Shown here in pieces: positions 8,515 to 64,000 of a stretch of DNA of 64,000 nt. The DNA is from Gracilariopsis chorda (Eukaryota; Rhodophyta; Florideophyceae; Gracilariales; Gracilariaceae): NCBI GenBank assembly GCA_003194525.1, contig NBIV01000075.1, positions 1 to 64,000 of the forward strand, in the 5' to 3' direction. Numbering within the stretch: the stretch's first letter is position 1; each line of letters starts with the position of its first letter. Made by a program: the position numbers and the translations under genes. The notes beneath the pieces were generated by a model. The model worked only from the letters and a program-made list of their open reading frames with translations. It was not told the DNA's origin and searched no databases.

Positions 8515-10619
8515 TGAGCCCGTTCCGCCTGAGGCGGGGTCTGAGAATCCTGAACCACTAGCAGTGGAGCGCTAGCGGGGGTGTCTTGTCGAACAAGACG
8601 GGGGTTAGTGACCTGCTCAGCAGGGGAAAGCAACGCGTGTCGCGGGTTCGTATCCGGGATATTCCGGGGGAAGTCCGTCTTCGCTCGTAAGTACGATGCA
8701 ATCGGAACGGTCTGCTTCTCCGCTGGAGTAAGGGCTTCATAGTTACCGATCACTCCGGTTACTTCTCTCAAAGTGAGGATGCAGTCCGGTGAAATGTGAC
8801 CGTGTTCGTAACATATGTGGCATATGACTCCAGAGCGTGGGGGCGGCTGACCGGAACGAGCATCCGTGTGTCTCACCGCTGGGCGGGTATCCTTCCATCC
8901 GGGACAACTCTGCCGGAGGGCACCATTCGAATAGGGGATTCGAGGTCCGTGAACACGGGGTCCGTCAACATACAGCAGGGAATTCTCCTGAGCTGTGTCG
9001 TAGGACGCATCCGTCGTGGACGGCAGTTCCGTTGTCAGAATGGACTGAGCACCGGCCTGAGCGAGGTACACGTTATCGTAGTCCCTTGAAGGGCGTCCAC
9101 TCGCTGCTAGCGGTAAAGATGGTGAACTGGCTTCCATCATCAACGCCTTGGCGGGACGAAACTTCGATGCAGGGATACGAGCTCGAAGTGCATCACCTTC
9201 CGCTTGCGCGTGTTGAATCAACTCCAGGTAGGTGGTGTTACGACGATCCTCCCGATATCGGGCCACCAGCGTACGGATTGCCGGATCCAATCCATCGATA
9301 TACATGGTGCAGCGCTCTCCAGAGGAGTAAACATTGCCACACCTGTGGAAAGCCTTATTAAGGCGTACCGAGAATTCGGTTTCCGTCTCTCCAGATTTCT
9401 GGCGGGTATCGCGTAAAGCGAGAATAGCCGCCTGAATAGCGTTGTTCGTCGCATAGGATCGCAAGAGGTACTGAACCGCTTCCGGCCAGCACGTTACACC
9501 TCCTTCGGAGGCTCGGGAAGAACATCTTACAGAGTTGTATTGATCCTCGGCGAGGCCACGTAGAAAATACGGTAGGGCAATAAACGCCTGTCCTTCGTTC
9601 ATACCAAGTATGTCCGCTTCGGAAACGAACCTTCCGAGGAAGTCTAACACCAATATGGGATCCTCTCCAGAAAAGGACTGGTTACGAAGGGAAAGCTGCA
9701 TACGCTTTATGCAGTCCTTCACCTTACCCGTACCACGGGGTGTACGATCCAATGAGGAGTCCTCAAGCCGATAATATCGGTACGATACCAACCTCTTGTA
9801 GAGGGGATTAGTACATTTGAGTTCCCTCAATCCTAAGTGTTTCCTCCCCTTCCTCCGGGGGCAAATCACACCTTGGGTGGAAGAAGACCGTTTAGAATGG
9901 GACGGGCGTCGGCGACGATCATCGTCCGACGAAGAATCCGACGACACCGATCCATCTGAATGGTGAGAATCCTGTGAAGACAGGGAGGAATCCGAAGAGT
10001 CGGGATCGTGCTTGGGCTGCTTCTTACGAGTGCGGCGGGCAGAATCTTTCTTCTCGCGCTTCGCTTTTTGCGATACAGCAGCGGCCTCACCCGGGACGTT
10101 GTCATCCATCAAGATAGTTTGCTCCAACGTCCTCAGACGGGCACTGACACGATCAAATCGGGTTTCCACATTCTCAACACAGTTGGCAGGGCCACCAAAA
10201 CATTCCAACACAGTGTTGACATCCGCCCTTAAAAGGCGAATGTCCTCAGCCAAATCCTTCATAGAAGAGGTATCAAACCTGACACGCAGGACTTCAAACT
10301 CCTCCACGAGGGTATTGTGTGCTTCACACATCTCCTCAAGCTGCGCTTGGACACTAGGGGGGGCGTCGGTATCGGGTTCTCCCCTACGGGGTGCAGCTAC
10401 ATCGGCAGAAGCCGGGTCGACACCAGAGTTGGGAGCGTCCTTCAACGCCTTAGGTGGGGGTTTCTGGGCTCTCGACGAGTCTTGGCCCTTCGATTTGCCT
10501 TTCAAAGTGGCACGTCGAGGGTGGCCAGCGGGGACCTTCGACATCTCTGCCTGTTCCACGTCAGTGACGGAACGACTCCGCGTGACAACGGGTTCGGCGG
10601 AGGATGGTCGCCGAGACAT
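8505..10619 (-). CDS. gag: Gag polyprotein of chromovirus A
   Basis: This is an open frame of 704 residues counted from the first ATG (10617-10619); the frame is open upstream without another ATG. It is the structural protein of the virus-like particle. The N-terminal third is basic and Ser/Asp-rich, with a long charged stretch resembling a nuclear or nucleolar signal. A capsid-like helical region follows from about residue 260. A CCHC zinc knuckle near the end (CHICYEHGHISPDC) fits C-x2-C-x4-H-x4-C and would bind the RNA genome. It overlaps pol, which lies in the -1 frame. It is uninterrupted, unlike pol, so gag may still be expressed. The family call rests on the knuckle and on its position before protease. 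Confidence 0.88.
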   Translation of the reverse strand: MSRRPSSAEPVVTRSRSVTDVEQAEMSKVPAGHPRRATLKGKSKGQDSSRAQKPPPKALKDAPNSGVDPASADVAAPRRGEPDTDAPPSVQAQLEEMCEAHNTLVEEFEVLRVRFDTSSMKDLAEDIRLLRADVNTVLECFGGPANCVENVETRFDRVSARLRTLEQTILMDDNVPGEAAAVSQKAKREKKDSARRTRKKQPKHDPDSSDSSLSSQDSHHSDGSVSSDSSSDDDRRRRPSHSKRSSSTQGVICPRRKGRKHLGLRELKCTNPLYKRLVSYRYYRLEDSSLDRTPRGTGKVKDCIKRMQLSLRNQSFSGEDPILVLDFLGRFVSEADILGMNEGQAFIALPYFLRGLAEDQYNSVRCSSRASEGGVTCWPEAVQYLLRSYATNNAIQAAILALRDTRQKSGETETEFSVRLNKAFHRCGNVYSSGERCTMYIDGLDPAIRTLVARYREDRRNTTYLELIQHAQAEGDALRARIPASKFRPAKALMMEASSPSLPLAASGRPSRDYDNVYLAQAGAQSILTTELPSTTDASYDTAQENSLLYVDGPRVHGPRIPYSNGALRQSCPGWKDTRPAVRHTDARSGQPPPRSGVICHICYEHGHISPDCILTLREVTGVIGNYEALTPAEKQTVPIASYLRAKTDFPRNIPDTNPRHALLSPAEQVTNPRLVRQDTPASAPLLVVQDSQTPPQAERAQEN

Positions 10620-10710
10620 GTGTAGACCAAAAACTCCCACGAAGTAGTAAGAAACCAAAAGTTTGGACAGTGAATCTCCGAGGAGAGGTAATACAAAACT
10701 TAACCGTTTC

Positions 10711-10731
10711 CGATTCTAGGTCGGGAGACCA
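10711..10731 (-). other. Primer binding site of chromovirus A
   Basis: The plus strand reads CTAGGTCGGGAGACCA up to base 10731, three bases inside the 5' LTR. It looks like a tRNA 3' end (T-stem, seven acceptor bases, discriminator A, CCA), so the element strand begins TGG as a PBS should. The acceptor end GGGAGACCA resembles that of yeast-type tRNA-Tyr, but I cannot confirm the primer. Confidence 0.75.
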
Positions 10732-32929: not shown

Positions 32930-34656
32930 AGGGTCCTTTACAGGCGTTGCACAAGATTAAACTGTTGTTGAAATCATAGTTGCGCTGGAAGGGTTGAAAA
33001 AACCTCACGAGAAATTAAAATATAGTAAGAGCTACATTGTACATAGGAGTTTGGAAACCCAACGGGTGACGTCTTGAACAGAGAAAGAAAATGGGAGGAA
33101 CTGCTGCCCAGCTGTGCGAAGGTTTTTTTTCCGGACGTTCTACCGGCAAAAATCGTGGTCAATATAGAACCAAAGCGCTCATTGGTCGATGGGGTGCTCA
33201 ATGGTAATTGAAATTTTGAACCATTGTTGCCATTCTTATTTCTATATTCGCCGCGTATTGGAATCAGAAAAGCAATCACACTATCTATATGGCAGCGGCA
33301 AATGGCGATAACAACGCTCATAGGGATGCAAAACGCACCTCAGTCACGATATGTTAGAGCAAGTCTACAAGAGATTTATATCCCCAAAAAGTCCTAGGCG
33401 ATTTTGGCATCCTTAATAGGGTTCTTATTGCCATTTCTTGTTGCCATCTCCACCTTGTGATTTGTTTTTTCATTTCAGTACAAGGAAAATATGTAAATGA
33501 AAGTAGACACCGTGATTTGAAATTGTAATGGATTTTGAGAACTTCATTGACCTATGAGAGAACTTGTTTTATATCAACCAGATTTCGGGCGGGTAGAATG
33601 AGCAGGAAACAAATATTCGCGCCAACGACTGCTAAAACGTCTATCTGTTCAAAACTTGAAATAATGTAACTTCAGTGGAGAGCCATCGAGCAGAGGCGAG
33701 GCGATCAAACGGCGTCGTTCGAACATGTTGGCTGTGATTATTTGTACCTCATGCAGGGCGCTTGGTTGAGTGCTGAATTGATTGGCTAACGTTTCTTGTA
33801 TTGCAAATGGCTCGTACTTGTAGTCAAGCATAATTGCACTAGACTGGTCGACTTGCACCTTATTTGGGATGCTAAATTGAATGTTATTTTCAAAACAAGT
33901 GTCTATAGCATAGAGCACTGGTAGACTTGCTCTTAGGTTTCTTTGAGATGCAGCTCTCTGGTAGACTTGCTCTAACTTGATATTTAGGATGAGCAAGTGG
34001 AGCCGCACGACTCCATATCTGGTTTCTTTTAGGATGCGCCGTGACTGCGGCCGGCGGCCATCGCGGCGGCCGGTCGGCTTATAGAAATGCATGCTCTGCA
34101 CCCATGAATATCCCCTCACAAAACTTTTCCCCCTGTCTAGAAAAGTTTTTTTTTTGTCTCCCACGTTCTATACGTTTTGCACATGGCAGGAGGTTTCAGA
34201 AATTACTCAAACCTAAGACGCTTCAGGTTGAATATAGCTCTCCAAATAAGAATACAAATCGAGCTCCCAGATCCCCGAAATCCGTCTGATTGTCACACTC
34301 TGACACCGCGACTTCTGCATTCGATGCATCTAGGGCACTACAGGACGCAGCACACTGAATTGGTGGAATACACCGCTGGCCGAAGCTCAGGCTGCGTTCC
34401 CTGATTATGCACCAGCTCCGCACAGCGTACCTTTGCTCTGCTTGCGTTGTCAGCGCTTTCGCGCCGAGTCCCTCCTGCACCCAAAGAGTTGTTCTCCGCA
34501 CTTGCATGAGCTATTCTCTAAAATCATTCACCGGCTTTTGGCTTCTATTTGAATCCGCCGCTCATTATCCCAATATCCCAAACTGGTTCCCATTGCTGCG
34601 GTTTGTAATACTGTCTGAATTACTTTCCATCAAAGAGGTCATGAGAGCGCAGTGTT
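32930..34656. other. Mostly non-coding upstream of the hAT gene
   Basis: No gene is supported. A 16-base direct repeat CTGGTAGACTTGCTCT is at 33918-33933 and 33958-33973. A GC-rich patch at 34046-34077 with repeated GGCCGG and GGCGGC stands out from AT-rich surroundings. A 171-codon minus frame (33649-34164) starts with GTG and shows no known features. Confidence 0.5.
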
Positions 34657-36879
34657 ATGAATCCAAATCCATCGCGCCTTTTTCAATCTCCGTCCGAGTC
34701 AGCAGCTCAGAATCAATCTTCACGTTCTGGAAGAAAGCGAAAATGGTATATGGTAGAGTGGTTCGAAGAAAAAGCTGATAACAACTTAGAGAGAGCACAA
34801 AGTCCTGAAACAGCAAATAGTACGCCTCGAAGAACCTTTCATACTTCTATAAGTTGTGGTTGGCAGACGAGGGCAAAAACGCCAAATGCTACGCAAATGC
34901 GAGATCATCTACTCAGATGTACTGCATTGCCAAGAGATGTCCGCACAAAGCTTCTCAGAGAACGAACACTACTGAAACGGGACCAGTCGCGATATGGTGG
35001 CCATTCGGAGCTCTTCAGGAGACCCATCACCCCTACAAAGCCCAAAAGAACGTCTTCAACTGCAAACAATAGTCGTTCACATGCTGGAACAACAAATTCA
35101 CTCAATTGTGTCAGCGAAGTGGGAGAAAGTGCTGTCGTAGCATTGAACTTTGAGGAAAAGGTGGAAAGCCAAGAATCATATCGTGTGAGAATGAAACTTA
35201 ACGAGCTTCGTACGCGTTTTCTGATCAATAACATGCTTCCTTTTGCGATTTTTTCTCGTAAGCCAGGTAAGAATCTTTTTTACCAGATTGCAAAGGTGTT
35301 AAACCCAGATCTATGCGACCAGATACCCTCCATGTTCAAAATGTCCGAGCGGAATTTGAACATCTACTATGAATCTATGATGGATAGAGTGAAGTCTTCG
35401 ATCTCTTCATCGTTTGCGAATGGTTATGGGACTTTGTTGTTCGACGGTTGGACGGACGATAATAATGAAAGCGTGGTGAATGTAATGCTGTCAGTCACAG
35501 GTGTTGAAAGAACAAGGAAAACGTTCTTCCTTAGCTCCACCTATGCCGGTTCAGAACCTGTGGATGCAAACTACTACGCCGACCTTTTAGAAAACACTGT
35601 TCTAACGTTCGGAACCATGAAGAATATCTGCGCTGTTGTAAGCGACGGTGCCAGTTGCTGCCGAAAGGCGAAACAGAAACTTATTGAGAAACATAATCAC
35701 CTTTTACCGGTTCAAGACCAAACTCACTCTGCTAACCTTCTCATGCAAGACTTAGGTTCCATATCGTGGATATCTACCGTGTTAAGTAAGGTGTCAAGCC
35801 TCGTTACCGAAGTCCGAGCTCACTCAAAGCTCTATCATCGGTACAAGGAACTAAAAGACCTACACAACCTACAACTCTTCTCGGACTCCACGCCACCCGC
35901 AACCACTCGAAATACGCTTGATGAATTCGGGCGACTGGCTCTTCCTAGAACTGCAGTACTGCCATCGAAGCCGGCCAAAAAACTTTTTACTTCCGCGGAA
36001 GGCATGTTGAGATCCGTACTGAGAAGCTTGACGGTTTTTCAGCGGGTAATAGAATGCTCTGACTTTGCTACTAACTTATTTGGAGCTCGAGACGCTCGAA
36101 CTCGACAGAGGCGTTCCGCGTTTGAAGCGACAATCCGAGACCAGAACCTCTTTCAACAAGCTCTCGACCTTTATCATATCTTACGGCTGGTACGTCAGTA
36201 TTTACATCTATTTGATGAAGAATCCTCTCTCATATCGGAGGTGTATCCGGCAACGAAGGAGCTACGACATCGTCTTTCCATGGTACCTCTAACCCCCTTT
36301 TTCTCTATCGAGCGCCGCAACGAAGTACTCTTTGTTTTCGATGAAAGACTTGGCGGGTCTTCACCAAGAGTTGTTCTGATAACAGCGCTGCATCGGGTTG
36401 CCTTCTTTTTAGATATCAGGAGCACTTATGCTGACATGACAGAAGATCGACCTCATGTGACACGCATGCTGAGGGATTTCGTGAAATCTAGTGTATTTCC
36501 GGAAGCTGAGAAAGACGAAGCTCGGGGTGGAGAGGATAGAGCCGTACAATCATTATTGCAAGAATTGAGCCTGCTCCGTCTGTCATGGAGATCCAGTGGC
36601 AATGATCCTACGAAGCGAGACATGTTGTGGGCATTCAGTGACATCCCCGTTGTCTACTGGATAGAATATCCAGAGAAGAGCTCTCTGTTACGTCAATTCA
36701 CTCTGAGAGTTCTAGGAGCCAGCCCATCTTCCTCCAGTGTCGAGCGAAGTTTTAGTCGCCAAGGTCGAATCCTTACAAATGTACGAAACCGCTTAAACCA
36801 TACAAAAGTGAGGAAAATGATTTTTGTTCTTACAATGATATCCTTCTTTGTCAACACACGACTCATATCGGGAGATTAA
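34657..36879 (+). CDS. hAT-superfamily transposase (DUF659 type), intact frame
   Basis: An uninterrupted 740-residue frame from ATG to TAA. The N-terminus has a degenerate BED-like segment (Cys at CGWQ and HLLRC near residues 66-88). The central DUF659-like region includes LLFDGWTDDNNESVVNVML, with the first catalytic Asp expected at FDGW, and VVSDGASCCRKA. The C-terminal hAT dimerisation domain is clear (YWIEYPE, GASPSSSSVERSFSRQGRI, NRLNHTKVRKMI, about residues 665-730). It cuts and pastes DNA with 8-bp duplications in this superfamily. The length is normal. I did not find its terminal inverted repeats by eye, so it could be an active element, an immobile copy or a domesticated gene. Confidence 0.88.
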   Translation: MNPNPSRLFQSPSESAAQNQSSRSGRKRKWYMVEWFEEKADNNLERAQSPETANSTPRRTFHTSISCGWQTRAKTPNATQMRDHLLRCTALPRDVRTKLLRERTLLKRDQSRYGGHSELFRRPITPTKPKRTSSTANNSRSHAGTTNSLNCVSEVGESAVVALNFEEKVESQESYRVRMKLNELRTRFLINNMLPFAIFSRKPGKNLFYQIAKVLNPDLCDQIPSMFKMSERNLNIYYESMMDRVKSSISSSFANGYGTLLFDGWTDDNNESVVNVMLSVTGVERTRKTFFLSSTYAGSEPVDANYYADLLENTVLTFGTMKNICAVVSDGASCCRKAKQKLIEKHNHLLPVQDQTHSANLLMQDLGSISWISTVLSKVSSLVTEVRAHSKLYHRYKELKDLHNLQLFSDSTPPATTRNTLDEFGRLALPRTAVLPSKPAKKLFTSAEGMLRSVLRSLTVFQRVIECSDFATNLFGARDARTRQRRSAFEATIRDQNLFQQALDLYHILRLVRQYLHLFDEESSLISEVYPATKELRHRLSMVPLTPFFSIERRNEVLFVFDERLGGSSPRVVLITALHRVAFFLDIRSTYADMTEDRPHVTRMLRDFVKSSVFPEAEKDEARGGEDRAVQSLLQELSLLRLSWRSSGNDPTKRDMLWAFSDIPVVYWIEYPEKSSLLRQFTLRVLGASPSSSSVERSFSRQGRILTNVRNRLNHTKVRKMIFVLTMISFFVNTRLISGD

Positions 36880-39681: not shown

Positions 39682-42600
39682 CTACTCTGATTCCATCACA
39701 TGCGGGAAGGAATTGCGTTCTTGACGAATAAACGGCTGTACCCCGGCGTTGTACAACATCAAGTTCTGCTTCACTACATCACACATTTCATCAACAATTT
39801 GTTCCAGCGGCACATCCGACAAGTCCTTCCCAAACGGATTCGCCAGCTCGGACGACCACTTCTCAATCCCAACAATTCCATACGAGATAAATCCAATCCA
39901 GAGTATGGCCAGCCACCCGGACGACTCCACAAACCCTAGCGGCAACAACAACAACCAGATAAACAGAAAGATCCTCAAATGTTGAACATATCCATACGGC
40001 ATTGGGATGTTCACTATTTCTTCTAAGTCCACCGACTTATATCGCAGAACCCTCAAATACCAAAAGAATATCCAGTGCTCGTTGCATCCGGCGTGGCCCT
40101 TTTCCTTGTAAGCGGACCAACGATCTCCTTCTGACAAGTAGTAATGCAGCACGTCCAGGCAGTAATCACTTCGATCACGGGCGCGTAGCAATTGGTCGCA
40201 GTCTTCTTCGCTTAGGATTTTCCGTAATCTGTCTTCGCAATCTTCGCCCCTCAGTTTGCTCATGATCGTCACCGCGAACGCCGCCAAATGTGCGGCAAAC
40301 CTCTCCAGGTCCTGTTCGTGCCATTCTCCGCCATAATAACTTTCGAAGACACGGTTGGAAAGCAGATGCATAACACCTGTCATCTCTCCCCAGATACTTG
40401 TTCCCTTCACAAAACGGCCGTGGCTCTCATATAGGCGGAAGCCCAGCAGTAGGAACAACGCAAATCCCACGTATTCCTTCACCTCAGCACTTACTGCAAT
40501 CCGAGAACAGAACCACATCGAACACCCTTCTTCAATCTCGTCCGAGAACGGGAATTCCCGAGATACCAACCACGCTGCCAGAACACACAACGCAGTCCAT
40601 ATCAGTATCACAGTTGTCTGCCAAAGAGAAAATGTGTTCAACGCCAGTTTCAAGTTCTCGCGCATTCGCTCCTTGAATCCTTTGTTCACTGGCTTCTGTC
40701 CGTTGTCAGATCTTTCCGTCCAGAATGGTTCGATGCTGGATGCGCGCACGAACTTCTCCGAATTCCGCGTCAAGTGCTTCTGAACAAACAACAAGTCCGC
40801 CACAATCTCATCGGCCATTGTGTCTAGATCCAGGTCGTTCAGATCTGTTCCAAACGGGAACTGTAATTCCTTCGCAATCGAGTACATTCTGTTGCAACAA
40901 TATGAAATAAGTTAGTGTGAACTGGTTTCACTCTCGGCAACAGCAGTAAACGAATTGTTTCGTCAACTTACCCTAGTACACCATACGCAATGATCGGAAT
41001 CCATAATATAGTAAACCAGCCTGTACGCACCGTCAAGGGAGTGGGTGATTGTTAGTACTTGTTCGCGTAGCTACTCTGAACACTGTAATCGATGCATGCG
41101 CTCGTACCTGAATGCTCTGCAATAGCAAAGGGTAGGATCAGGAACCAAAGCCCAAGAAACGTGTTCAGCAATATCAGGAACCCTGGTGCAATCTCAAATG
41201 ATCGGAGGAACTTGGATTCTCGAATCATCTTCTCTAGCTCAATGATCTCATACTTCACAAATGCTACTCGACTGCCATAGTGGAATGGTTTGCGCATCTG
41301 ATCGCTGTTCGCTACTACACCCAAGAAGTACGAGCGTAAGACGTCCACACAATGGCTTACCATACTATCAGCGCACTGAATACGAGCAACATCCTCAAAT
41401 GACAGCAGCCCCTTGATTTCCCGTATGTCTCGTGAGTTGCGAAGTTCAGCTTTCAACACCAACGGAATCGCTGCCACATGCGCAATGATCCGACGGTGAT
41501 CCCCATCATGAAAACTCCCTTCCTCGAACAGTACTTGGAATTGGGTCGCAAGTGCGTGACACGAGGAACGCAGTCGGGCACCCCATACGCTTCCAGCCGA
41601 TATGTATCGCACAAACGCCGATCTCACGAAGAAACCAAGAAGCATAAACGCTGATGTCCACAACACCAAATGCAAACACGAGTAGAGAAAACAGTTAGTC
41701 GCTCGTATCTTCATCTCATTAAGTACCGGCAACCAATGAATGATTCGTACCTGCAAACGAAATGTACGTCGCCACCGTCGCGTTAACACTGAACTTCGAC
41801 TGCCACCATCTGGCTACAACATCGTCACCTCTCTTCCTCGCAGCATAGGAAATGATGGTTCCTATCGCCGTCCAAACAGTTACGTACAGCAGCATCCACC
41901 ACGGAACAGAGCCGAGTACATGAGCATAGAACCCAGGCTTCATCTTGGAAGACTTAGGTCCGCTGAACCGTACAGGAGTGCCATCCCCAAACATTGAGGA
42001 CTCCTGTGAATCATCGAAATGAGGCAGGGTATATTCATTACCAACGGATCTCTTCTGAAGAACTGTTCCAAGCTGTGGGTTGTTGTCTGAAAGCATAGGG
42101 TGGATGTGGCGAGATAATCCCCATTCAACGCTTTGTACACCTCCAAGAACACCGGCTGCAGCTTCGGTACACATTTTCTCCAAAGGAATGTCAATCGCAT
42201 CGTTTCCGTACGGGTCCACCAGTCTGGCAGCTATCTCTTCAAGACCAAGCACGCCAAATGAAATAATCGGAGCCCACAGTATAGTGAAAAAGCCTGTGCT
42301 CGGTGCCATTGCTAGGGGAAGAAGACCGAGCCACAGCACTGTGAACATGTGCTGATGCAGAGTATAGCTCGCAATAACAGGAAATCGTTTCACACCCAAA
42401 GCCCTGGAAATGGTGGTTCGGGTTGCAGCGATTCTATTCAGCATGGTGCCAGTCAACGTCCCGGCTATCCGCTCATCCCCGATACTCGAGTAGTCACGGA
42501 CTCTTAAATCTTGAAGTAGGAGGTAACCTTCTATCGTCTGAAGAAGGTGCTCAATCGGATAAGCACTCGACTCGAAAGCATGCCTGTCTTCATCGGAAAG

Positions 42601-45546
42601 CAGTCCTTCCTTCTCATCCGCTTCCTTTCTTTCGATTCCCAGCAAGCGATCGCGAAAACACAATGGTATTTGAACGATGTGCGCGACTATCCTCTCCTTG
42701 TCCTTCTCATGAAAGAAACCGTCCCGAAAATTCTGCACGATTTCAATGGCCAGATTTCGTAGGTTCATTTCAATGTCGTAGACGAGCATCGCGCCCTCCT
42801 CATACCTTCCAATAGCATCAGAAGCGCGGAAACTAAGAATCATGAATAGAGCGAACCCGATATTCGCCAGAACACTCACTTCAACATCTATCGGACTGCA
42901 CCACCAAAGACATTGGTCGCGTCTCTCATCAGACCATGAAAACGACAACCCGTATGACAAGAACACAGCCATAATTGCCCATACTATAACCAGTATCATG
43001 TATCTTCGTGATACGGACGGAATTTTGTCCGACAGCAACCTCAAGGACCCCATGACAGTTGGATGTGTAGATTGGTCATGAGAGCTATTCGATTTCCTGA
43101 ACCATCTGCGCCATAGGGATGTAGATTCTTTCAGGTCTTCTACATCACATGTGACTGGATTCGCAGAAAGTTGCCTTGCTTTGAACATTTCTCGAGAATA
43201 GGTCGATGGCCGAACGTATGAAGCTATGCCACCCTTTGTCTCGTGGTACAAATTATGAACAGATGTCTTGATTTCATTGCACAGCACGTCCAATGGAATG
43301 TCTTCCTTATCGAACCCAAACGGATCGGCAAGGTTGCTCCCGATTTTGATGAGGTTGATGATTGAATAGCTGATTGGGATGATATACAAGAACGACAAAA
43401 ACCCAGAGAAGCTTATCAGCGACAGTGGTAGCAGAGCTAGCCAGAAGAACGTAAACACCTTCAAATGCGTGGTGAAGGAAGGAGATATGGGGAACTTGTG
43501 AATTGCCGCGCACTCTTGCATCGTCCTTTCTAAGGCCCAGAGCGTATATCCCAAACTGTAAATAGCGCTGCTGAACGGACATGCCGGGATCTGAGTGGTG
43601 CTTTCGTGTGCACAATCAACGCTGTTTATGTAGCCGAAGACAACATCTGTAGCGTGAACAAAGAAGTCATCCGACATGTCAAACGCAGCGACGTCCTGAG
43701 GAGAAAGGAATTCGTTCAGCTCACTGGTGTCCCTGCTTCCTCGGAGCTTGAGTTTTGCTGCATAACAAAGTGCAACTACATGCGAGAAAAGACGCTCTCG
43801 ATCACGATCATGCCAGGTACCCGGTTTGCACATAACTGCGAATTGAAATGCTAATTCCTCGATGCAGGTTCGGATCTCACTCTGCCACAACTGCAACGCC
43901 CGCCAGTACCGGCTATATGCAACATTCATCCAAAAGCCGAGAATGAGGAAGATACCCAAACTAACATAGGATGTGATTGAGGAATCAACGGGAAGGTATA
44001 TGCACCACCATCGACATGTCCCGTCGTCCGTGCGTTTACCCCATGTGAGGAATAACAAAAACGCACTCCACACTACGACGACCAGGACGTACAGAAACAC
44101 TCCCTTGCCGATGTTTGCGATACGATTGATTATGAGCCGTTTGAGCAGACCTGGACCTTTAGGGGGCTTGATTGGATCTTCAATAGATCCACCTACAGGC
44201 TTCTCCAACCAAAGCGGTGTGTCGTGGTTCTTTCGGACTACAGATGTGAGCTCCAGTGGATCACGAGCGAATGCGTCGAGCACCTGAAGAGCAGAATCAG
44301 CGGCAAAGTGATTGAGCTTGATATCCTGCATATCGTAACCATAAGGATCGGTCAAAGCTTGACCAATGGTGAACAGCATGCCTACACCGTACGAAGTGAG
44401 CACTGCCCAGAGAATAGTGAACCTAGATTCGAAAAGAAAAGTAGAACAACGATAAGCAGGTCAGTTACAGAAGTGTACCAGTACACTTCACGGTTCTGTA
44501 GGAAAGAGCTACGTTGATACTTACCATCCGCTGCTCTGTACAAGGGCCAAGGGCAGGAAGAACATCCAAATGTAGAGGAAGATATGCAAGTGATTGACAT
44601 ATCCGGCTGAGGGACTGGTGTTCGCGATCTTCATAACGCCATTAGCATACGTATCGACAGCGTCCATAACGTCCATGATCAAATAGCGCACACCCCAGCC
44701 GGCCGGTGTTTTCGCCGCTGCTGCGCAAGCAAAGGAATTAGGTGCGTCATCTTCAGAAGCACTGAGATATGTGCGAACGACTCGCATGCAGTGCAGATGG
44801 TCTCCATAGTTGAGAACATCATCAATATCGCCCCCGTGGAGTATGCCTTGCAACTGTTCGCTCTCCTTCTCCCCTCGGATAACCATCTTCAGTGCGATGG
44901 GATATGCAACAAGATGAGCAACGATACGGTCTATATCCCTGGCATGCCAAGTACCTTCGGGGTAGTTCTGTCGCAAGTGACGAACAGTCTGGCGAAGGTT
45001 TCCTGTCAATTGAGCCCAGTTCAGTTGAGCCTCCCAGTAACGGTTACTGGCCTCTCTGATGAAGAAGCCCAACAACACAAACAGCGCCCAGCCAACGCCA
45101 TACGAAACCGAAGAGGAAACAACCAACCGAGAAGTCCAAAACTCAACAGAGAACCAACTGATGGAAATATCCTCACGCGGGGCAAGTCCGTACGCTACGA
45201 GAGTAACAAGCGTACTCCATATCAGCTGAAACAGGAGAATTCTGTAGGGAATTGTCTGCAGTACAGCAATCAAGCCGGAGTAGTCAGCGGGATTAGGCTC
45301 CGGCTTTCCGGAGCCGAGCTGACCGGTGGCCTTTGCGCTACGCAGACGTAGAGCGACTGCGTGATGTTCAAACAGACGATATGATGGGCCAGGAGGCGGC
45401 GCTTCTATGTTGTTCTCTTCGGGCGAAGTTTCCTCGTTGACCTCGGAATCCGGCTCTAGCTGGGCATCTCGCTCGAGCTGAGAATCCGTCTCGAGCAGGG
45501 TTCTCTGCTCAGTAGGCGGTGAGACGGGGGCGGACATAGTTGGCAT
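39682..45546 (-). CDS. Five-domain tandem bestrophin, single-chain anion channel
   Basis: Five exons on the minus strand: 45546-44525, 44422-41751, 41650-41108, 41020-40972 and 40888-39682. The four introns (102, 100, 87 and 83 bp) begin GTAAGT, GTACGA, GTACGA and GTAAGT and end in TAG, CAG, CAG and CAG. Exons sum to 5,493 nt, exactly 1,831 codons including the stop. ATG at 45544-45546 is chosen because codons further upstream lack ATG and the following residues are a typical acidic tail. The 1,830-residue product has five bestrophin units. The clasp-like signature ([DNF]P[FY]G-x-D-x2-D) recurs at residues 366, 707, 1077, 1439 and 1779. Each unit also has the pore-helix block (LLGF...RY or RF), an AHL/AHV block and the FLYIWMFFLPLALVQSSGW-like block. 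Bestrophins are pentameric Cl-/HCO3- channels, so five linked units could fold as one pore. Units are strongly diverged from each other, so the repeat is old. Confidence 0.9.
40889..40971 (-). other. Intron 4 of the bestrophin gene
   Basis: It begins GTAAGTTGA and ends TTGCAACAG. It is phase 2 and follows a 49-bp micro-exon (40972-41020) encoding WFTILWIPIIAYGVLG. Confidence 0.82.
41021..41107 (-). other. Intron 3 of the bestrophin gene
   Basis: It begins GTACGAGCG and ends GCGTACAG. It is phase 1 and interrupts EHSGW in the fourth unit, nearly the same place as intron 1 in the first unit. Confidence 0.82.
41651..41750 (-). other. Intron 2 of the bestrophin gene
   Basis: It begins GTACGAATC and ends GACATCAG. 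It is phase 1. Joining restores the ISFA-AFMLLGFF pore-helix block of the fourth unit. Confidence 0.82.
44423..44524 (-). other. Intron 1 of the bestrophin gene
   Basis: It begins GTAAGTATC and ends GAATCTAG. Phase 2 splits a Trp codon in the QSSGW/FTILW block of the first unit. Confidence 0.85.
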
Positions 45547-50247: not shown

Positions 50248-51519
50248 TCAATGTTCAACGCAAACTTCTTCCGCCGACAACATCGAGTCAGCACAAGGGA
50301 GCCCAAGTTCATGGCGAACAACACTCCCAATCGCAACAGCCACATCATTTGCAACCAACGCGCTTAAAACTATCCTAAATAAAACCACTACCAACAAGAT
50401 AACTAATAACACTCCCACGCTAGCAATTGGTGCCCGTCTTCTAAACAAAACCACATCATCAAGCGTGCGCGTCTCGTTTCTAATGGCAAGTCCAACAATA
50501 CCCCCGAGCAAATCTATGGGTTCGTCCGGTACAGAGACAAACGACCTTTCAGCGTTCACAAAGCTTACTTTGGCAAGCATCTTGTTAATCGTATCGCCCA
50601 TTAGTTTCTGCATCTCGTGGACATTTTGTCTCGCGCACACTGCTCGAAAAGTCAAGTAGTTGTCTACCTTGAAAGTTGAGAACAGGCCAGGCTTTTCAAA
50701 AGTTTCAAATGCTTTGAATTCGTCTCCACACCGTTCCTGTGCTACCCGCAAGCCCGAAAAAGCCCACTCTCGCAGATATTCTTCGGATGACAGATAATGT
50801 AATGCAAACAGATTTGCGCGGTTTAGCGTCTTTGAAGATGACACTACTTCCCCTTTCTTTGTGCCATGGATCGCCCCCGCCCATGTGCGTATAATAACGT
50901 GAAAACCTGCAATCCTAGCCAAATCGAACACTTCAAGCACAAACAAAACTTCTGAAGCATCAGCACGCAGTTGTGTACGGGTTTCGCACAGAACAAACTT
51001 TGCCTCTGCCTTCTGATCACTTCCATGCGCTACATCGAGAGGCACTTGTTCACAACCCGAAGATAACGGCTTGGTTTTCAAAACGCTGTTATTCAAGCGC
51101 AGACCAAGAGCGATGCCACCAAAACCAGCCGTTCTGAACGTGAACTCTTGCTCTCTCTCGATTGAGAGAGCGACGAACACTGCATTGATCAAGGGCGCGG
51201 CTACAACCAGTGCGATCAACTTCATGGCCTGAGGTATAGTTGGAGAGGGATACTGCCCATCTTGGACGCCGGAAATAGCTTGTGAAACAGCACTTGGCGA
51301 AGATCGCCAAGCCACCAGCTGTGTATACAGGTCGCATCTTGCAATTATGTTCCGCATCTTGCATCCCAAAACAACACTGTGCACGATTGAGAACAGTTGG
51401 CTCACGATTATGGTAGTGATGACGGAGACTAGAAGGGTATTCAGGTTATTGTCAGCTGGACGCCATGTCACGAATGCACTTGGTTGATTTGCATAGGTCA
51501 GAGTTGAGCCTTCAATCAT
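50248..51519 (-). CDS. Three-helix membrane protein, family unknown, paralogue 1
   Basis: An uninterrupted 423-residue frame from ATG (51517-51519). Hydrophobic segments lie at about residues 27-52, 99-120 and 365-388. A loop of about 50 residues separates the first two, and a domain of about 240 residues containing several Cys separates the second and third. A short tail follows the third helix. The N-terminus (MIEGSTLTYA...TW) and helix pattern match the protein at 61881-63311 (MIENGTIVYS...TW), so the two are paralogues. The conserved start supports this ATG. I know no family with this layout; a lineage-specific surface or organelle membrane protein is possible. Confidence 0.75.
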   Translation of the reverse strand: MIEGSTLTYANQPSAFVTWRPADNNLNTLLVSVITTIIVSQLFSIVHSVVLGCKMRNIIARCDLYTQLVAWRSSPSAVSQAISGVQDGQYPSPTIPQAMKLIALVVAAPLINAVFVALSIEREQEFTFRTAGFGGIALGLRLNNSVLKTKPLSSGCEQVPLDVAHGSDQKAEAKFVLCETRTQLRADASEVLFVLEVFDLARIAGFHVIIRTWAGAIHGTKKGEVVSSSKTLNRANLFALHYLSSEEYLREWAFSGLRVAQERCGDEFKAFETFEKPGLFSTFKVDNYLTFRAVCARQNVHEMQKLMGDTINKMLAKVSFVNAERSFVSVPDEPIDLLGGIVGLAIRNETRTLDDVVLFRRRAPIASVGVLLVILLVVVLFRIVLSALVANDVAVAIGSVVRHELGLPCADSMLSAEEVCVEH

Positions 51520-52071
51520 GTTTCACTCTCTGGCGATACTTGGGTTGGTCGTGGGATTCAAAGCACTTCTCTGCTCGGTGTTTGATTTGTTATCTGGAGC
51601 CATAGTAATTCATTTCTGCCGTCAAGAAGAGCTGATGAGCTGCTGTTCGACGAAGGTCACGCATTCATAATAGCGTAATAAACCCTCTCTGCACGACAAA
51701 AATCGAAAGGCGGATCTTTAGGTCCTATTACATTCTGTGCCTGAGAACCGTACCATCCCGTCAGAAGGTGAAGATGGCACAGAAGCTTGGGAATACACAA
51801 CTAGGATAAGCCTCCAATCAACAATTGAACAAGAGCTAACGCAATAATAGAGTCATTCTATTATACATGTTCTGGCACATAAAGTATAGGTTCGAGCAAG
51901 AACGTGGCGGAAAACAATTCGAGTTGTCACTTTCTAGTCGTGTATGGCTAAAAGTTCGGATGTCTGATAAAGGGGTAGATTGTTACCTTCAACCTTTGTC
52001 TGACACTGTAATATTAGTATTCCTTCGATCTGACATCAAGTCAGACGCTCATACAGTCCCCGAAATCAAAT
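51520..52071. other. Intergenic, nothing recognised
   Basis: This is the upstream region of the membrane-protein gene and should include its promoter. I see no gene, repeat or RNA. Confidence 0.5.
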
Positions 52072-53962: not shown

Positions 53963-54104
53963 TAAGGGCCGTTCTATGACTTTCTTAATCTGTGAACGGT
54001 TAACTCTGAATCAAAAAATTTTCGATTTTGGTCCAGTTTCGTACACTACGAAAAACAAATAAAGATTCTAAGAGGAGAAAGCTATCCCATCGCGAAGAGT
54101 ATGC

Positions 54105-55399
54105 ATGCAACTTGGCAACAACATGGTGGAAATCACTCTTTCGTCGCGCACCATTCATTTGCTTCAACTCCCTCACGATAGAACCGTCCAGTCGAGCAAA
54201 CGAAGCAAACAAAGGCACTTTTTAGCGAGATGTGTTATGCATATCATTTGCAGTGCAATATGCGCACAAATGGTGGAACAAGATAACCGTGCACTCCGTT
54301 GCGTGCTCCCCCAAACTCCGTTCAACACACAGGCGCACATAGAGTTCCTTTCTGACATTGTTTTTACCAGAATGTATCGCGTTACAAAATCTCAATACAG
54401 CCTTCTTCTCTCAACTGTGCAAGGTTTTCTCCAACGAACGCAGAAAAATTGTTCTAGAGTTGCAGCTTCTCTTACTCAACCTGTTATGTTATTTCTTAAA
54501 TTACGAGTTCTAGTCGGAGAAAGTTACTTAGATATATCGTGGCCATACGGGGTTGGCTCCTCAACAGTTTACCATGCATTCAAGGAAACCTTAATCGTTC
54601 TTGATCAGACACTCCCGAAGATCAGATTTTCGCGCACAGAGGAAGAGTGTATGAACCAGGCAAATATGTTTCGAAGCCTAAGAAACAGTCCAATACATGG
54701 TGTTATATCGGCACTGGACGGAAAAGCCATTGCTATAGGTGCCCTTCTCTGAGAGAAGCTCCAGATCCTATGAAGTACGACAAGCGAAAGAAATTCTTTG
54801 CTCTTTGCGTGCAGGCAACCGTGCAAGCGGACTATAAGTTTTCGTTCGTGTCTGCACGTCATTCTGGTGGAACGCATGACGCCACCGCCTTTAGTAATAC
54901 AGAACTATACGACTTACTACATGGAGATGAATTACCTTCTTGGGCAGCCGTCGTTGCGGACGATGCATATAGTAACAAAGCCCGAGTTTTGACGCCCTTT
55001 CCGGGTCGACATTTAACACAGAGAAAAGACACATATAACGCTTATCATTCTGTTACTCGGGCGTGCGTAGAACAAGCGTTCTGGATTCTAGTATGCCGCT
55101 TTGGAGTCTTCTGGTCTTCTATACTCTATTCTTTGCACCACACTACTCTAATCATTCTTGTCGCCTGTAAGTTACACAACTTTCTCATTGATACGTCTGA
55201 CGATAATACGTACGAATTCATTGCTGCGCATGAAGACAATCAGGTTTATGGCAATCCTGTTGTGCATTTTCAAGATGGGTTGCACTATGAGAGAGATAAC
55301 ATGCGTGCAAGAAACCGTGGTAGAGAAGTTTCCGATTTGAGAGATGAACTTGCGGATCATCTTCAAAGACAGGGCTTTGTACGAAGAAGAACATGCTGA
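54105..55399 (+). pseudogene. PIF/Harbinger transposase (DDE_Tnp_4 type), one frameshift
   Basis: About 430 codons in two overlapping frames. The first frame (54105 to about 54745) has the helical N-terminal region (VTKSQYSLLLSTVQGF, YGVGSSTVYHAF) and the first catalytic Asp in GVISALDGKAIAI. A single missing base near 54738-54742 moves the rest to another frame. There SARHSGGTHDATAFSNT, VVADDAYSNKA (second Asp) and ACVEQAFWILVCRFGVF (Glu) complete the DDE triad. The C-terminus ends in a basic/acidic tail. An internal ATG at 54237 is an alternative start. With one lesion it is nearly intact. It lies about 140 bp inside the left TIR. Confidence 0.85.
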
Positions 55400-55685: not shown

Positions 55686-57007
55686 ATGCTGACAAATACG
55701 CCGTTCATTACACCATGGGTCCCCTGCCTTCTACGCATCGCCCAGATTTCATCACTGAGGCTAGAAGGATTTCGAGAGCACCGTCTTAACTTTCGATCTC
55801 GAACTGCTTCCCGAATTCTGCATACACCATGTGCATCAGCGGTCTCCCCATCTTCCGACCCTTTCAGATCCAAATGTGCGCCGCCCAAGTCCGACCCACT
55901 GCCACCGTTACCAGAGGAGCTGCGACCACAGCGCGAAATGCCACCTCGCTATGATCCGCAGTCTGTTGAGCAGGTTCTGTACCAGTGGTGGGAATCTGCA
56001 GGCTTGTTTAAGCCATGCGTTACAAACGTTAAAACACTTGGCTTGAATATATTCGGGACTGGTGTGTTTCGCGCCAGTTGTGGTGAGGTCACCGCATTCC
56101 TGTATGGTATGTTGAAGAGCACTCCGGAGGATATATTGTTGCGAGAAGTGACGAAGAAGCGGCGCAGATAGCCAGCGAGAAATACAATGGAGAGGCAGTC
56201 ACTTTGAAGCAAGAGACAGACGTTTTGGACACATGGTTCTCGTCTGGTCTATGGCCCTTCTCGACAATGGGCTGGCCGAACGAGGATGCTAAGGACCTGA
56301 AGACTTTCTTCCCTGGCTCAGTTATGGAAACTGGATACGACATCTTGTTCTTTTGGGTAGCGCGAATGATCATGTTGAGCCTATGGTTCACGGGTGAAGT
56401 CCCGTTTCACATTGTTTATTTGCATGGGTTGGTTCACGATAAGCAGGGAAGAAAAATGAGCAAGACGGTTGGCAATGTTATTGATCCGATTGATTTCATA
56501 TCATCATACGGCACTGACGCTTTTTGCTACACGCTTTTAACTGGTAGTACGCCAGGTCAAAACATCACACTATCGAACGAAAGGATTGAATCCAGTTGCA
56601 ACTTTGCAAATAAGCTATGGAATGCTTCTAGGTTCATCATCGGTAACCTGGACAAGATATCAGATGAAGAGCGACACGAACTTGCTAAAGTTGCTATTTC
56701 TGATTTTGGACAGATTGATGAAGTGGAAAAACAATTTCCAGTAACTGAAGAGCCAGCACAGGCTAATGCAGAGCCGGAAGAAGATGGGGATGGTCGAAAT
56801 TTGGAATCCCAGCCTAGCCAAGACGCGGAGCACCCTGCGGAACTTGTTTGTGGGGCTGGAGCCGACTGTTTAATTCTTCGCAAGGACGCTCCTGCTGTTA
56901 CCGGGCAATGTACAAAATGTCGCTGCCCGCTGCAAGTTTTGTGTGGCGGTGGTGAGAAAAAAGGCATGTTGTGTAGAGGTTACAAAGGACCAGGACAGCT
57001 ACCGTAG
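55686..57007 (+). pseudogene. Valyl-tRNA synthetase fragments fused, middle deleted
   Basis: Bases 55686 to about 56000 encode an N-terminal extension and the start of ValRS (PPRYDPQSVEQVLYQWWE...GLFKP). About 100 bp later the sequence jumps to the catalytic C-half: YIVARSDEEAAQIASEKY in one frame near 56110-56190, then an open frame from 56204 with VLDTWFSSGLWPFST, the KMSKS box (HDKQGRKMSKTVGNVIDP) and ASRFIIGNLDKI. The HIGH box and the editing domain are missing, so it cannot charge tRNA. After about 56740 the frame leaves ValRS similarity and reads through an acidic linker into a Cys-rich segment (CTKCRCPLQVLC) of unknown origin. It lies wholly inside the Harbinger element, so I read it as a captured pseudogene. 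Confidence 0.82.
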
Positions 57008-57139: not shown

Positions 57140-58660
57140 TCAGAGCTCAGCAGCTCTCTCGAATGATGGTAGAATAATCTTCACGGTACCGTTTTCGTAA
57201 AATGGAGGAAGTTGCAGCACACTCGTTCCATGTGCAATAGCCCTAAGCTTCATCAAATCTGACGCGCTAGGAATATCATTTCCGCAATGAAGGAGAATGT
57301 CTGCCAAACTGTCGGGGGTCTCGTTCCGACATATATCTCCATACACTGTTCTTCGAATCAAGAGGTTGTTCAGTTTTTCAGGGTCTGCTTTGTCGGCCTT
57401 TGAACATCCCAGGATTTGAGCCAAGGTCTCAATGCTAACGTTCGTCTTACGGGCACGACGGATCATCTGTGCCCTTCTTCATCTCCGAGCTTCACCAAAG
57501 TCGGCCCACTTTTCCACTAACCCCACCACTGGAGCGTCGTTTTCCGCAGACAGACGCTTACCCTTTGGATCGTTTTTGTCTGGCCCAAGACAGTAGGCAG
57601 TTAGGATATCGCAGTTGCATATCTCAATTTAATAACCGTCCGGATCTCGAATGAAGTACTGCTTGACGACCTTATCACTGGTATTACTCTCGTTCGTGCC
57701 TTGACCAGCATCGGCAGCCTTCGGTACGGAGACGTTCTATTGGAATGGAACTTGCATCCTTCGCAAGATCTCTGGCACCTTCTCAATTTCTAAGGTCTTG
57801 ATGCTAATGTGACCGACGATTAGATCATCTCCGCTTGGCACTATCGGCGTTCCCTTAATCAAGTGCAGTTCAAGATTACCCATTGTGAACCAAGCCCCGT
57901 GACAATCGAAGTTCGGGCGACGAATCTGCTGAAATCCGAGCACGTTTGAATAGAAAGCCGCGCTTCGCCCAACGTCACTGACGATTAGTGCGATATGAAT
58001 TGCTTTGTAAACAAAGCTCCCCAACCCACGTTTCTCGCGTCCCTTGGACCAATGCAAGAACGGGTTGTCATCTGGGTTACAAAGCGGGTTCCGTTCTGCT
58101 TCCAGTAACTTCCCTGCATGTTCCAAATCAGAAATGGTAACCTCAGAGTCGGAGTTGAAATCAAACAATTTCAGTACATCTTGCACTGCCTGCGGCATAT
58201 CTGCAATGTGAATGACACAATGGTCTTCGTCGTTTTCTTCATTGAAAAATACTCCAGTTCCACCGGCCTTCGCATCATTTGCAGAAATGCAGGATTGTAC
58301 ACATGCGTCCGCACGACCGGAGTTGTTGGATATATGAGAGTACTGTTTCTCTGTGCCAAAAGATGGAGAACAGCCCCCCAGTTCGTTCATCAGTTTGACA
58401 AATTAAGGAAACGTGATGCGACCGTTTCCATCACTGTCATACACGGTGATCATTTCATCCACAACACAATCTACGCCGCTCATTACTAGACTTGTCATGA
58501 CATGGCAGAGCTTGGCGGCAGTGATATACCCTGAAGAATCGAGGTCCAAGGCGTCAAGGAGGTCTTTGTAGCGTGCTTCTGCTGAGTAAGCAGATCTTTC
58601 GTCAGAAGAGGGCAGGACTTCACGGGGTTGATCCTTTATCCCTTCGGTATTGCAAGTCAC
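57140..58660 (-). pseudogene. EF-hand + VOC (glyoxalase-like) gene with four in-frame stops
   Basis: One minus-strand frame, unshifted over 1.5 kb, holds two EF-hands (LDLDSSGYITAAKL and YDSDGNGRITFP). A third loop DFNSDSEVTISDL and a VOC fold follow (HIALIVSDVGRSAAFYSNVLGF, GNLELHLIKG, and YFIRDPDGY near the end). A downstream helical segment follows. Stops interrupt at about 58403 (TAA in place of an expected Glu), 57737 (TAG), 57630 (TAA in place of the second Tyr of DGYY) and 57470 (TGA). No frameshift is needed. There is no ATG at the left-open start, so the 5' end is missing. EF-hand plus VOC proteins occur in algae. Here it is a captured, decaying copy inside the Harbinger element. Confidence 0.75.
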
Positions 58661-61880: not shown

Positions 61881-63311
61881 TCAATCTCTCGACATTGGCG
61901 CAATATCTAAAATTCCGCTACAAAATCCACCAACTTCTTCCTCATTGTCAATGTGCAACCCCAAATATGCATTTTCTCCCCATTGGTATTTGTGATCAAA
62001 TCGAAATGTCTCCTTTACGCCCAACAGAGTTTGGTTCTTTTTTGAATTCAGCCTTAGCCCCCTTCGAACCACAGTATCAATGGCATCATCAATGTCGGCA
62101 TTAGCAAAAACTTTCACCGTAAGTCTCACGACGATTGCTGCGACTGTTGAAAGGGCCAAAACGGCTAACGGGGCGAGGCTTCGTCGACGTCGTATTAAAC
62201 TAAGGGACTCACCATTGAAAAACTCCGCCACTTCTCCATCGACCCCGTCTATCGCATTTACCTCGCCCACCCAAAACCCTTCAGTGTTTACCAGTCCAAT
62301 TATGCCTGCAAAGACGGTCGTCGAAAGAATGATCGCGTTTGTTGAGCCCTCGCACCCGACCTTGCTCCACGCTCTAATAACCCCACGAGCTCCTATTTCA
62401 TGTTTCATTTCTCCTTCTACCTCAGGCTTTTGCCCCGCTTCAATTGCACAAGACAAGACGAGAGCATCAGAAGCTCTCTGCACTACCTCGCGAGCGTCAT
62501 CAACGCTCCATCGTGGTTTCGTACGGAAAATACCATCTTCATGGCTCACATCCAACCACATTGTGTATGCTCTTTCTGCAACTCCATGTTTGAAAGATAC
62601 AGTTATTGACCCACGGGGCAAATTCACTGCCGTTATAAGCGTTCCCCCATGCACTTCACCTTCAAGAGCAGTCTCAAATGTATCTGGACCTACGTACGAA
62701 TGCTCACTTGATCGGAATCCCGAACACATGGAGAAATCCATCAAAGACTCTTCATTTTCACTGAAACTTGTCATAACCTGATGGCATGCCAGAGTACCAA
62801 GCCCGCGCACTTGATCGGTTACCGGTGTTCTTAGGACGCCGACCGAAACACCTTGAAAATTTGAAGCGGAAACTGTAAGGAAAGTGTCTCGTTCCAACGC
62901 CACCACGATGGATAGTACGTTCATCAAAGGAGGAATGGCAAGCAGCAGTACCAAGCGAGCAATAGTTTTGAAACGAACTGAAGAAGAGTGCCTCTCAATA
63001 GCCATGAATGATGGTACTTTAGCTCTGTGTCGGAGTCGAATTCGATCAAGTGTGTCCAATCTCAATAACGCTGCTAACACATGTACCATGCTTTTCTCAT
63101 TGCTCAGCAATTGAGAATGAATTTGACTTGCTGAAGTTTTTCCTTTTGGCTTCAAGCCTAGTAGGAGGTCCGAAAACGCAGCGGTAATCTGATAGGAAAG
63201 CACGGTGGTCAGAATTGCGATGGTAATAGTGTTCACTGCTGGCCACGGAGTGCTCCATGTAAAGAGAGGTAGCTGCTCCGCAGAGTACACGATTGTACCG
63301 TTCTCAATCAT
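61881..63311 (-). CDS. Three-helix membrane protein, family unknown, paralogue 2
   Basis: 476 residues from ATG at 63309-63311. The frame is open a little further upstream but only with a GTG, and the paralogue at 50248 starts at the matching Met. Hydrophobic segments lie at about residues 27-52, 117-139 and 379-402. The region between helices 2 and 3 (about 240 residues, several Cys) is likely a folded domain on one side of the membrane. The block after helix 3 (ADIDDAIDTVVRRGLRLN) resembles the paralogue's DVAVAIGSVVRHELGL. The tail is about 50 residues longer here. Function is not recognised. Confidence 0.75.
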   Translation of the reverse strand: MIENGTIVYSAEQLPLFTWSTPWPAVNTITIAILTTVLSYQITAAFSDLLLGLKPKGKTSASQIHSQLLSNEKSMVHVLAALLRLDTLDRIRLRHRAKVPSFMAIERHSSSVRFKTIARLVLLLAIPPLMNVLSIVVALERDTFLTVSASNFQGVSVGVLRTPVTDQVRGLGTLACHQVMTSFSENEESLMDFSMCSGFRSSEHSYVGPDTFETALEGEVHGGTLITAVNLPRGSITVSFKHGVAERAYTMWLDVSHEDGIFRTKPRWSVDDAREVVQRASDALVLSCAIEAGQKPEVEGEMKHEIGARGVIRAWSKVGCEGSTNAIILSTTVFAGIIGLVNTEGFWVGEVNAIDGVDGEVAEFFNGESLSLIRRRRSLAPLAVLALSTVAAIVVRLTVKVFANADIDDAIDTVVRRGLRLNSKKNQTLLGVKETFRFDHKYQWGENAYLGLHIDNEEEVGGFCSGILDIAPMSRD

Positions 63312-64000
63312 TGAGAGTTGTAAATGGTGAGAGAGCAGCCTATTCTTCACTGATAAAACGTTTTATAAAACGCCAAGAGCGAGACCCGCTTTGATTTCAA
63401 CTCTGAAGACAGCCACGCGGCTGCACATGCAATATTAAAAACGTCTTCGCGCACAGCGGTAGTGCTCTAGCTCCCAAAGCTTGTCATCTCCCCTTGATAC
63501 CTTCGTGTCAAGAAAAACAAACAAATACCTTCATTGATGATTTTGGGGCTTACTCGTGGTGAGCAGGGGTCCTCATAGCTCCCTGTGGGGAGGTAAAGCC
63601 ACGTCGGTTCACCGCAGCTACTGTCAGCAGCAAGACCGTCCTCCCTGGGCAAAATTGTATCTTATGGTACTCCGCCCCTGGGTTTGCATTTCAAACTTTG
63701 AACCGCGCACGCTAGTCGCGTCCTCCACGAGCTGCGGCAAGAAGGTTGGCAATTGAGGCTTTGTCCGTTTCTAAATATTCCCCCAGCAATTGTCAGTACA
63801 AACGATGATATGTTACGAAAGCTACTCTCAATTCATGAATGATTTCGAAGAAAGCTCTAATTCGGTCAAATCCCATCAGTCTATTAAAAGAAGTACGAAA
63901 GATGTTGTTAGCCAATTACCTCTCTGCCACAACGAATTTGTGAAGCATCAGGGTTGAACTTGAACCTATATTTGCCGTTTGGCTTGTAATGTTACCCTTG
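63312..64000. other. Upstream region of paralogue 2, no gene seen
   Basis: It probably contains the promoter of the minus-strand membrane-protein gene. Overlapping frames of 60-66 codons at 63467-63756 lack support. Confidence 0.45.

Follow-up and report, generated by a model that had tools for sequence, protein, structure and literature searches.

A Gracilariopsis chorda gene encoding five Bestrophin_2 units in one chain: a candidate pseudo-pentameric anion channel

The described proteins of known structure closest to the one analyzed here are bacterial bestrophins of the KpBest type (PDB entries 4wd7, 4wd8, 5x87 and the 6iv-series, all of which we take to be KpBest), and they provided its best PDB matches (whole chain versus 6ivo, E value 9.9e-18). 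These chains share the neck and signature regions with our protein, but each of them (approx. 297 residues) carries a single unit and five chains build one ring, whereas our protein carries five units per chain. KpBest, cBest1 and bBest2 were solved as homopentamers (PMC9253114).

Among algal bestrophins, the BST proteins of Chlamydomonas and diatoms are thylakoid proteins, pentameric where counted, with one unit per chain; for Chlamydomonas BST4, a passage of PMC11638005 reports five molecules per complex counted in living cells. Transport of HCO3- by bestrophins is described for diatoms in PMC11142338 and, through work cited in it, for Chlamydomonas; the article also reports that red algae lack orthologues of the BST1-3 clade, although they have other bestrophin homologues. 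Since red algae lack such orthologues in that account, a role of the five-unit protein in carbon uptake would be only a guess.

The bestrhodopsins resemble our protein in being large algal bestrophin fusions, and one of them (PDB 7pl9, an entry with five chains) matched its fifth unit with an E value of 1.8e-15; however, they contain one bestrophin unit per chain, together with rhodopsin domains. They are reportedly described, in the title of a paper, as gigantic pentameric channels. The number of repeats per chain equals the ancestral number of subunits in the four-domain sodium and calcium channels, whose repeats specialize by position, although these channels have an unrelated fold, four repeats and cation selectivity. 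We know of no naturally concatenated pentameric channel besides this candidate, and among the open-access papers listed in literature searches none described a five-unit bestrophin architecture in its title or abstract opening.

The gene was found in a 64-kb stretch of DNA of the red alga Gracilariopsis chorda (64,000 nucleotides, hereafter the window), where five minus-strand exons occupy positions 39682-45546 (Table 1). Re-splicing from scratch reproduced what the initial annotation had proposed: once four GT/AG introns are removed, 5,493 nt (stop codon included) form one frame encoding 1,830 residues, in which the signature [DNF]P[FY]G-x-D-x2-D occurs at the five residues originally given. 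The claim that this is one gene and not several was also borne out, in that the units share exons, with the borders 1-2, 2-3 and 3-4 all lying inside exon 2. This exon alone runs from the end of unit 1 to the start of unit 4 without a stop codon, and therefore the joining of these units requires no splicing.

Table 1. Exons, introns and bestrophin units of the five-unit gene in the window (unit coordinates were derived manually from those of the exons).
Feature	Position	Strand	Description
Exon 1	44525..45546	-	1,022 nt; N-terminal tail (acidic) plus the greater part of U1
Intron 1	44423..44524	-	102 nt, GT/AG; site conserved at the C195 and C202 loci; absent from transcript-like P0005
Exon 2	41751..44422	-	2,672 nt; last part of U1, whole U2 and U3, first part of U4; no internal stop
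Intron 2	41651..41750	-	100 nt, GT/AG
Exon 3	41108..41650	-	543 nt; middle of unit 4
Intron 3	41021..41107	-	87 nt, GT/AG
Exon 4	40972..41020	-	49 nt; part of unit 4
Intron 4	40889..40971	-	83 nt, GT/AG; conserved at the C195 and C202 loci; beyond P0005 coverage
Exon 5	39682..40888	-	1,207 nt; last part of U4, whole U5, stop codon
Unit 1 (U1)	44245..45294	-	residues ~85-400; intron 1 inside; signature 366
Unit 2 (U2)	43210..44124	-	residues ~441-745; signature 707
Unit 3 (U3)	42085..43062	-	residues ~795-1120; signature 1077
Unit 4 (U4)	40750..41952	-	residues ~1165-1475; introns 2-4 inside; signature 1439
Unit 5 (U5)	39685..40653	-	residues ~1508-1830; signature 1779

The expectation that a profile search would return five bestrophin domains held for their number but not for the family named, Bestrophin (PF01062). 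The chain matched PF25539 (Bestrophin_2, described by Pfam as Bacterial/Fungal Bestrophin protein) in five stretches, with an E value of 5.5e-169 and a score of 561.5 bits versus a cut-off of 27, and in the profile search of the genome every unit of the window appeared as a separate match above the cut-off. Since PF25539 was the only Pfam family found on the chain at E ≤ 0.001, the protein belongs to Bestrophin_2 and not to the classic Bestrophin profile, and for the same reason a rhodopsin-bestrophin fusion was rejected. PF01062 was absent from the chain at this threshold; it also had no match in the G. chorda genome, which carries little weight, because this profile matched none of the 14 control genomes either.

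The five units were found to be as strongly diverged as had been claimed, with pairwise identities of 25-32%. In a simple hydropathy scan, units 1 to 5 showed 5, 3, 3, 4 and 4 hydrophobic peaks, respectively, a bestrophin unit having four membrane helices.

Two further loci share this frame and its intron sites, so that the genome contains three five-unit genes (the window gene and those on contigs C195 and C202). The best relative of the window protein, with 90% identity, was the hypothetical protein BWQ96_08484 of G. chorda (P0001); it is the paralogue encoded on C195 (G000:C195:67543-73404) and is distinct from the window gene. The C202 protein (1,805 or 1,806 residues, depending on the choice of start) is 62% identical overall, and its gene is spliced at the same four sites. 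When the whole window was compared by blastn with 18 kb around the C195 gene, one match covered the gene and ended at the stop codon, and a second one (771 bases) lay elsewhere, in opposite orientation. Similarity at the gene begins 96 bases past the ATG and the flanks are unmatched; therefore these are duplicated genes, and the possibility that they represent two haplotypes was rejected. At least 26 places in the genome matched PF25539 and, as far as these were examined, no intact five-unit gene was found among them beyond the three.

Comparison with C195 revealed that the window gene is under purifying selection in all of its units, with a dN/dS of 0.21 overall and 0.11-0.45 in the individual units; for the linker that joins units 2 and 3 (49 codons) it was 0.86, based on very few changes. 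The dS values were 0.66 in the N-terminal tail, 0.40 in unit 1, 0.07 in unit 4, 0 in the next linker and 0.15 in unit 5. Such a fall from the 5′ end to unit 4 is the pattern that gene conversion between the copies would leave.

The proposal of a single joined transcript could be followed through units 1-4, which are spanned by one transcript-like relative, P0005, in which introns 1-3 have been removed where predicted. This relative carries the EukProt label GEZJ01002761.1, presumably, from its accession style, the name of an entry in a transcript assembly. It is continuous where introns 1, 2 and 3 interrupt the window gene (residues 341, 1232 and 1413), loses similarity a few residues past the site of intron 3 and then ends. 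A term search of the main text of the G. chorda expression paper PMC10853006 gave no mention of bestrophin in that part of the article.

The same architecture, for which a search of other red algae had been suggested, is present there, in proteins assigned to Gracilaria domingensis and Agarophyton chilense. A full-chain search of 5.8 billion protein clusters yielded 46 relatives: P0001, a G. domingensis protein, three A. chilense proteins, one transcript-like record and 40 others. The G. domingensis relative (1,859 aa) bears the database name Bestrophin/UPF0187, and thus its sequence is already annotated, even if the design is undescribed in the searchable literature. Candidates in this search had approx. 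1,006-3,200 residues (up to 1.75 times the query length), and consequently chains of one to about three units were hidden from it, while longer chains could appear.

A profile built from the window units gave 4-6 domain matches per relative, the counts of six (P0004 and P0043) arising where a single unit had been divided into two matches. Of the 46 relatives, 35 contain sequence from every one of the five units, nine stop in unit 4 and two begin in unit 2. When the window and C202 proteins were added (48 proteins in total), every unit present had its closest match at the corresponding position of the window protein in all 48, and the positions always ran 1-2-3-4-5. None of the 48 contained a sixth unit, and 11 were open reading frames without an end unit. 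The signature, intact in all five window units, was imperfect in some relatives.

In 27 of the 46 relatives the match starts at profile position 247-271 of unit 1; the nine that end in unit 4 do so at position 66 (four), 253 (three), 268 (one) or 261 (P0005). Because these points lie close to the first three intron sites of the window gene, most partial relatives can probably be read as single-exon open reading frames of longer genes. A separate search with unit 4 retrieved 16 proteins of 181-446 aa, which were rejected as single-unit donors on the basis of length and fit; most or all of them were taken as exons of the same family.

For phylogenetic analysis, 19 of the 48 five-unit proteins were combined with 13 single-unit and nine bacterial-type rows, chosen from 64 matches that an alignment query had returned (the best 8,000 candidates were scored). 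Organisms were assigned to two of the 13 single-unit rows (P0064 and P0070, both of A. chilense) and to three of the nine bacterial-type rows (P0086, P0088 and P0093), the rest being grouped by the tree. A first, quick tree contained 102 rows, 16 of which were dropped for the second.

In the second tree (86 rows), each unit position formed one clade with support of 100/100 and the five positions together formed a clade (99/94), adjoined by the single-unit proteins, with the bacterial-type ones further out. The quick tree agreed, with a support of 80 for the five-position clade. P0070 had a long branch and did not group with the remaining single-unit rows, falling outside them. Since the position clades all lie inside one five-position clade, the expansion from one unit to five took place in one lineage, ahead of the divergence of these genes. 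The design is the product of a single ancient amplification from a single-unit bestrophin, and the order has been fixed since then. Branching among the five units had support of only 13/3 to 43/72, too low to order the duplications. It also follows from the single origin that the constancy of five is no independent proof of its importance, as it may reflect inheritance and not repeated selection.

The number of units equals the number of chains in the PDB relatives, 20 of the 22 matched sequences having been deposited with five chains. The best reading of these sequences, and in our judgement a probable one, is that one chain forms one pseudo-pentameric anion channel. The five units of a single membrane protein would fold as five sectors of one ring around one pore, and this pore would pass anions, Cl- and/or HCO3-, as expected from the family. 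We infer ring closure by one chain, anion conduction and gating roles specific to the sectors.

An alternative, which we regard as unlikely, is that five-unit chains share their pores between molecules, for example as five like-with-like pores or as rings of mixed chains. The linkers are long enough for such an assembly (81-110 residues separate each signature from the first hydrophobic peak in the unit that follows), and single-unit relatives, necessarily multi-chain, exist in the same genome. However, sharing between molecules leaves unexplained why there are exactly five units in a fixed order, with no sixth in any of the proteins inspected, and the nearest partners of each unit are the neighbouring units of its own chain.

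The register of the neck was set by alignment of unit 4 to the PDB chains (the KpBest identity and an offset of 3 in the chain numbering are deductions). In the window protein the neck residues of units 1 to 5 are W/V/F, L/L/F, F/M/F, F/M/F and F/L/F, respectively, and are hydrophobic in all five. The outer residue is conserved according to position: W in 10/12 U1 rows, L in 15/19 U2 rows and F in 18/19 U3, 14/16 U4 and 13/14 U5 rows. It was among the four columns, out of 302 well-filled ones, that were strictly position-specific by a threshold of our own choosing.

Such conservation by position makes an asymmetric channel gate plausible. To the outer gate, sector 1 would contribute a conserved Trp, sector 2 a Leu and sectors 3-5 a Phe each; the sectors of the channel would have fixed neighbours, and in its lopsided gate each of them may have its own gating role. 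Both acidic residues of the signature (+5 and +8) are retained in all five window units, which leaves calcium binding by these units possible; they presumably correspond to the calcium-clasp aspartates of human Best1. We lean slightly towards the fuller proposal of a covalent pentamer with one pore, five specialized sectors, an asymmetric hydrophobic gate and, possibly, gating or calcium control exerted sector by sector, in the manner of four-domain cation channels.

Some positions have lost residues that single-unit proteins carry. The single-unit red algal Bestrophin_2 proteins (P0064 of A. chilense and the G. chorda gene on C125), the nearest proteins outside the five-unit clade, have the same neck and signature, but they retain an arginine after the neck and a cysteine pair that are missing from some positions of the five-unit chain. 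This arginine is present in 13/13 single-unit and 9/9 bacterial-type rows, as well as in 17/19 U3 and 10/14 U5 rows; its place is taken by W in 18/19 U2 rows and mostly by F or Y in U1 and U4. The cysteine pair, located before the neck helix, occurs in 13/13 single-unit, 17/19 U3, 14/14 U5 (one of them with three cysteines) and 7/19 U2 rows, and in 0/12 U1, 0/16 U4 and 0/9 bacterial-type rows.

These losses (the arginine from U1, U2 and U4, and the cysteine pair from U1 and U4) would suit a second alternative, in which only some units line the pore and the others are regulatory or structural, the ring being incomplete or completed by single-unit bestrophins. The low identity of the units (just 25-32%) points the same way, as does the middle neck residue of U4, which is polar (T or S) in 9/16 rows, against a uniform gate. 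Yet F or Y occupies the innermost neck position nearly throughout in all five units (12/12 U1, 17/19 U2, 18/19 U3, 16/16 U4 and 14/14 U5 rows of the 102-row alignment), and selection against C195 is purifying on every window unit; we therefore consider this alternative quite improbable.

Comparison of the window protein with its C202 paralogue, between which synonymous change is saturated in most parts of the gene, revealed linkers that are less conserved (36-57% identity) than the units (62-73%), as might be expected of a polyprotein cut into five subunits that assemble into an ordinary heteropentamer. There is very little to recommend this scenario, since no cleavage site is known and cutting would yield a mixture of subunits, leaving the fixed order without a reason. 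That adjacent single-unit genes or a decayed array were misread as one frame is scarcely credible, despite the decayed family fragments found elsewhere in the genome, in view of the three unit borders inside exon 2, the identical frame and intron sites at two more loci, the five-unit proteins of other species, the dN/dS of 0.21 and the joining of U1-U4 in P0005.

A single chain forming a single pore would be a naturally concatenated pentameric channel, the pentameric counterpart of the four-domain sodium and calcium channels. Each sector could then be altered alone in its native setting, which would make stoichiometry, sector-by-sector gating and asymmetric ion selection directly testable, questions that are usually studied with artificial concatemers. 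Such a protein would also show an evolutionary route from a homomer to a heteromer of fixed order.

In addition to the five-unit genes, the G. chorda genome carries single-unit Bestrophin_2 genes or gene pieces at C125:114203-115387, C125:102409-102528 and C10:412498-413486. The single-unit gene on C125 is near P0064 of A. chilense and that on C10 is near P0070. Three other places (L018, L019 and L020, on C337, C86 and C311, respectively) contain U5-like or U4/U5-like fragments only, split over several frames, and three more (L016, L017 and L021; two on C72 and one on C318) contain only a U1-like fragment. The C72 and C318 stretches are 99.7-100% alike over 2.4 kb and are recent copies of one fragment, which, in a small comparison, was nearest to unit 1 of an A. 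chilense protein (42%). At C337, C86, C311 and one of the C72 copies, the examination was extended by another 8 kb into the flanks.

Several other features were observed in the window. Two long open frames of 424 and 493 aa on the minus strand (50248-51522 and 61881-63362, respectively) resemble, by eye, a pair of related membrane proteins; neither had a Pfam match. A retrotransposon-like gag/pol region, recognized by eye, occupies positions 3317-10715, a hAT-type transposase (DUF659, Dimer_Tnp_hAT) is encoded at 34645-36879 and a DDE_Tnp_4 transposase at 54072-55399. Positions 56087-57007 of the plus strand encode a portion of a class I tRNA synthetase (tRNA-synt_1), and a protein with a glyoxalase-type domain is encoded at 57737-58402 on the minus strand.
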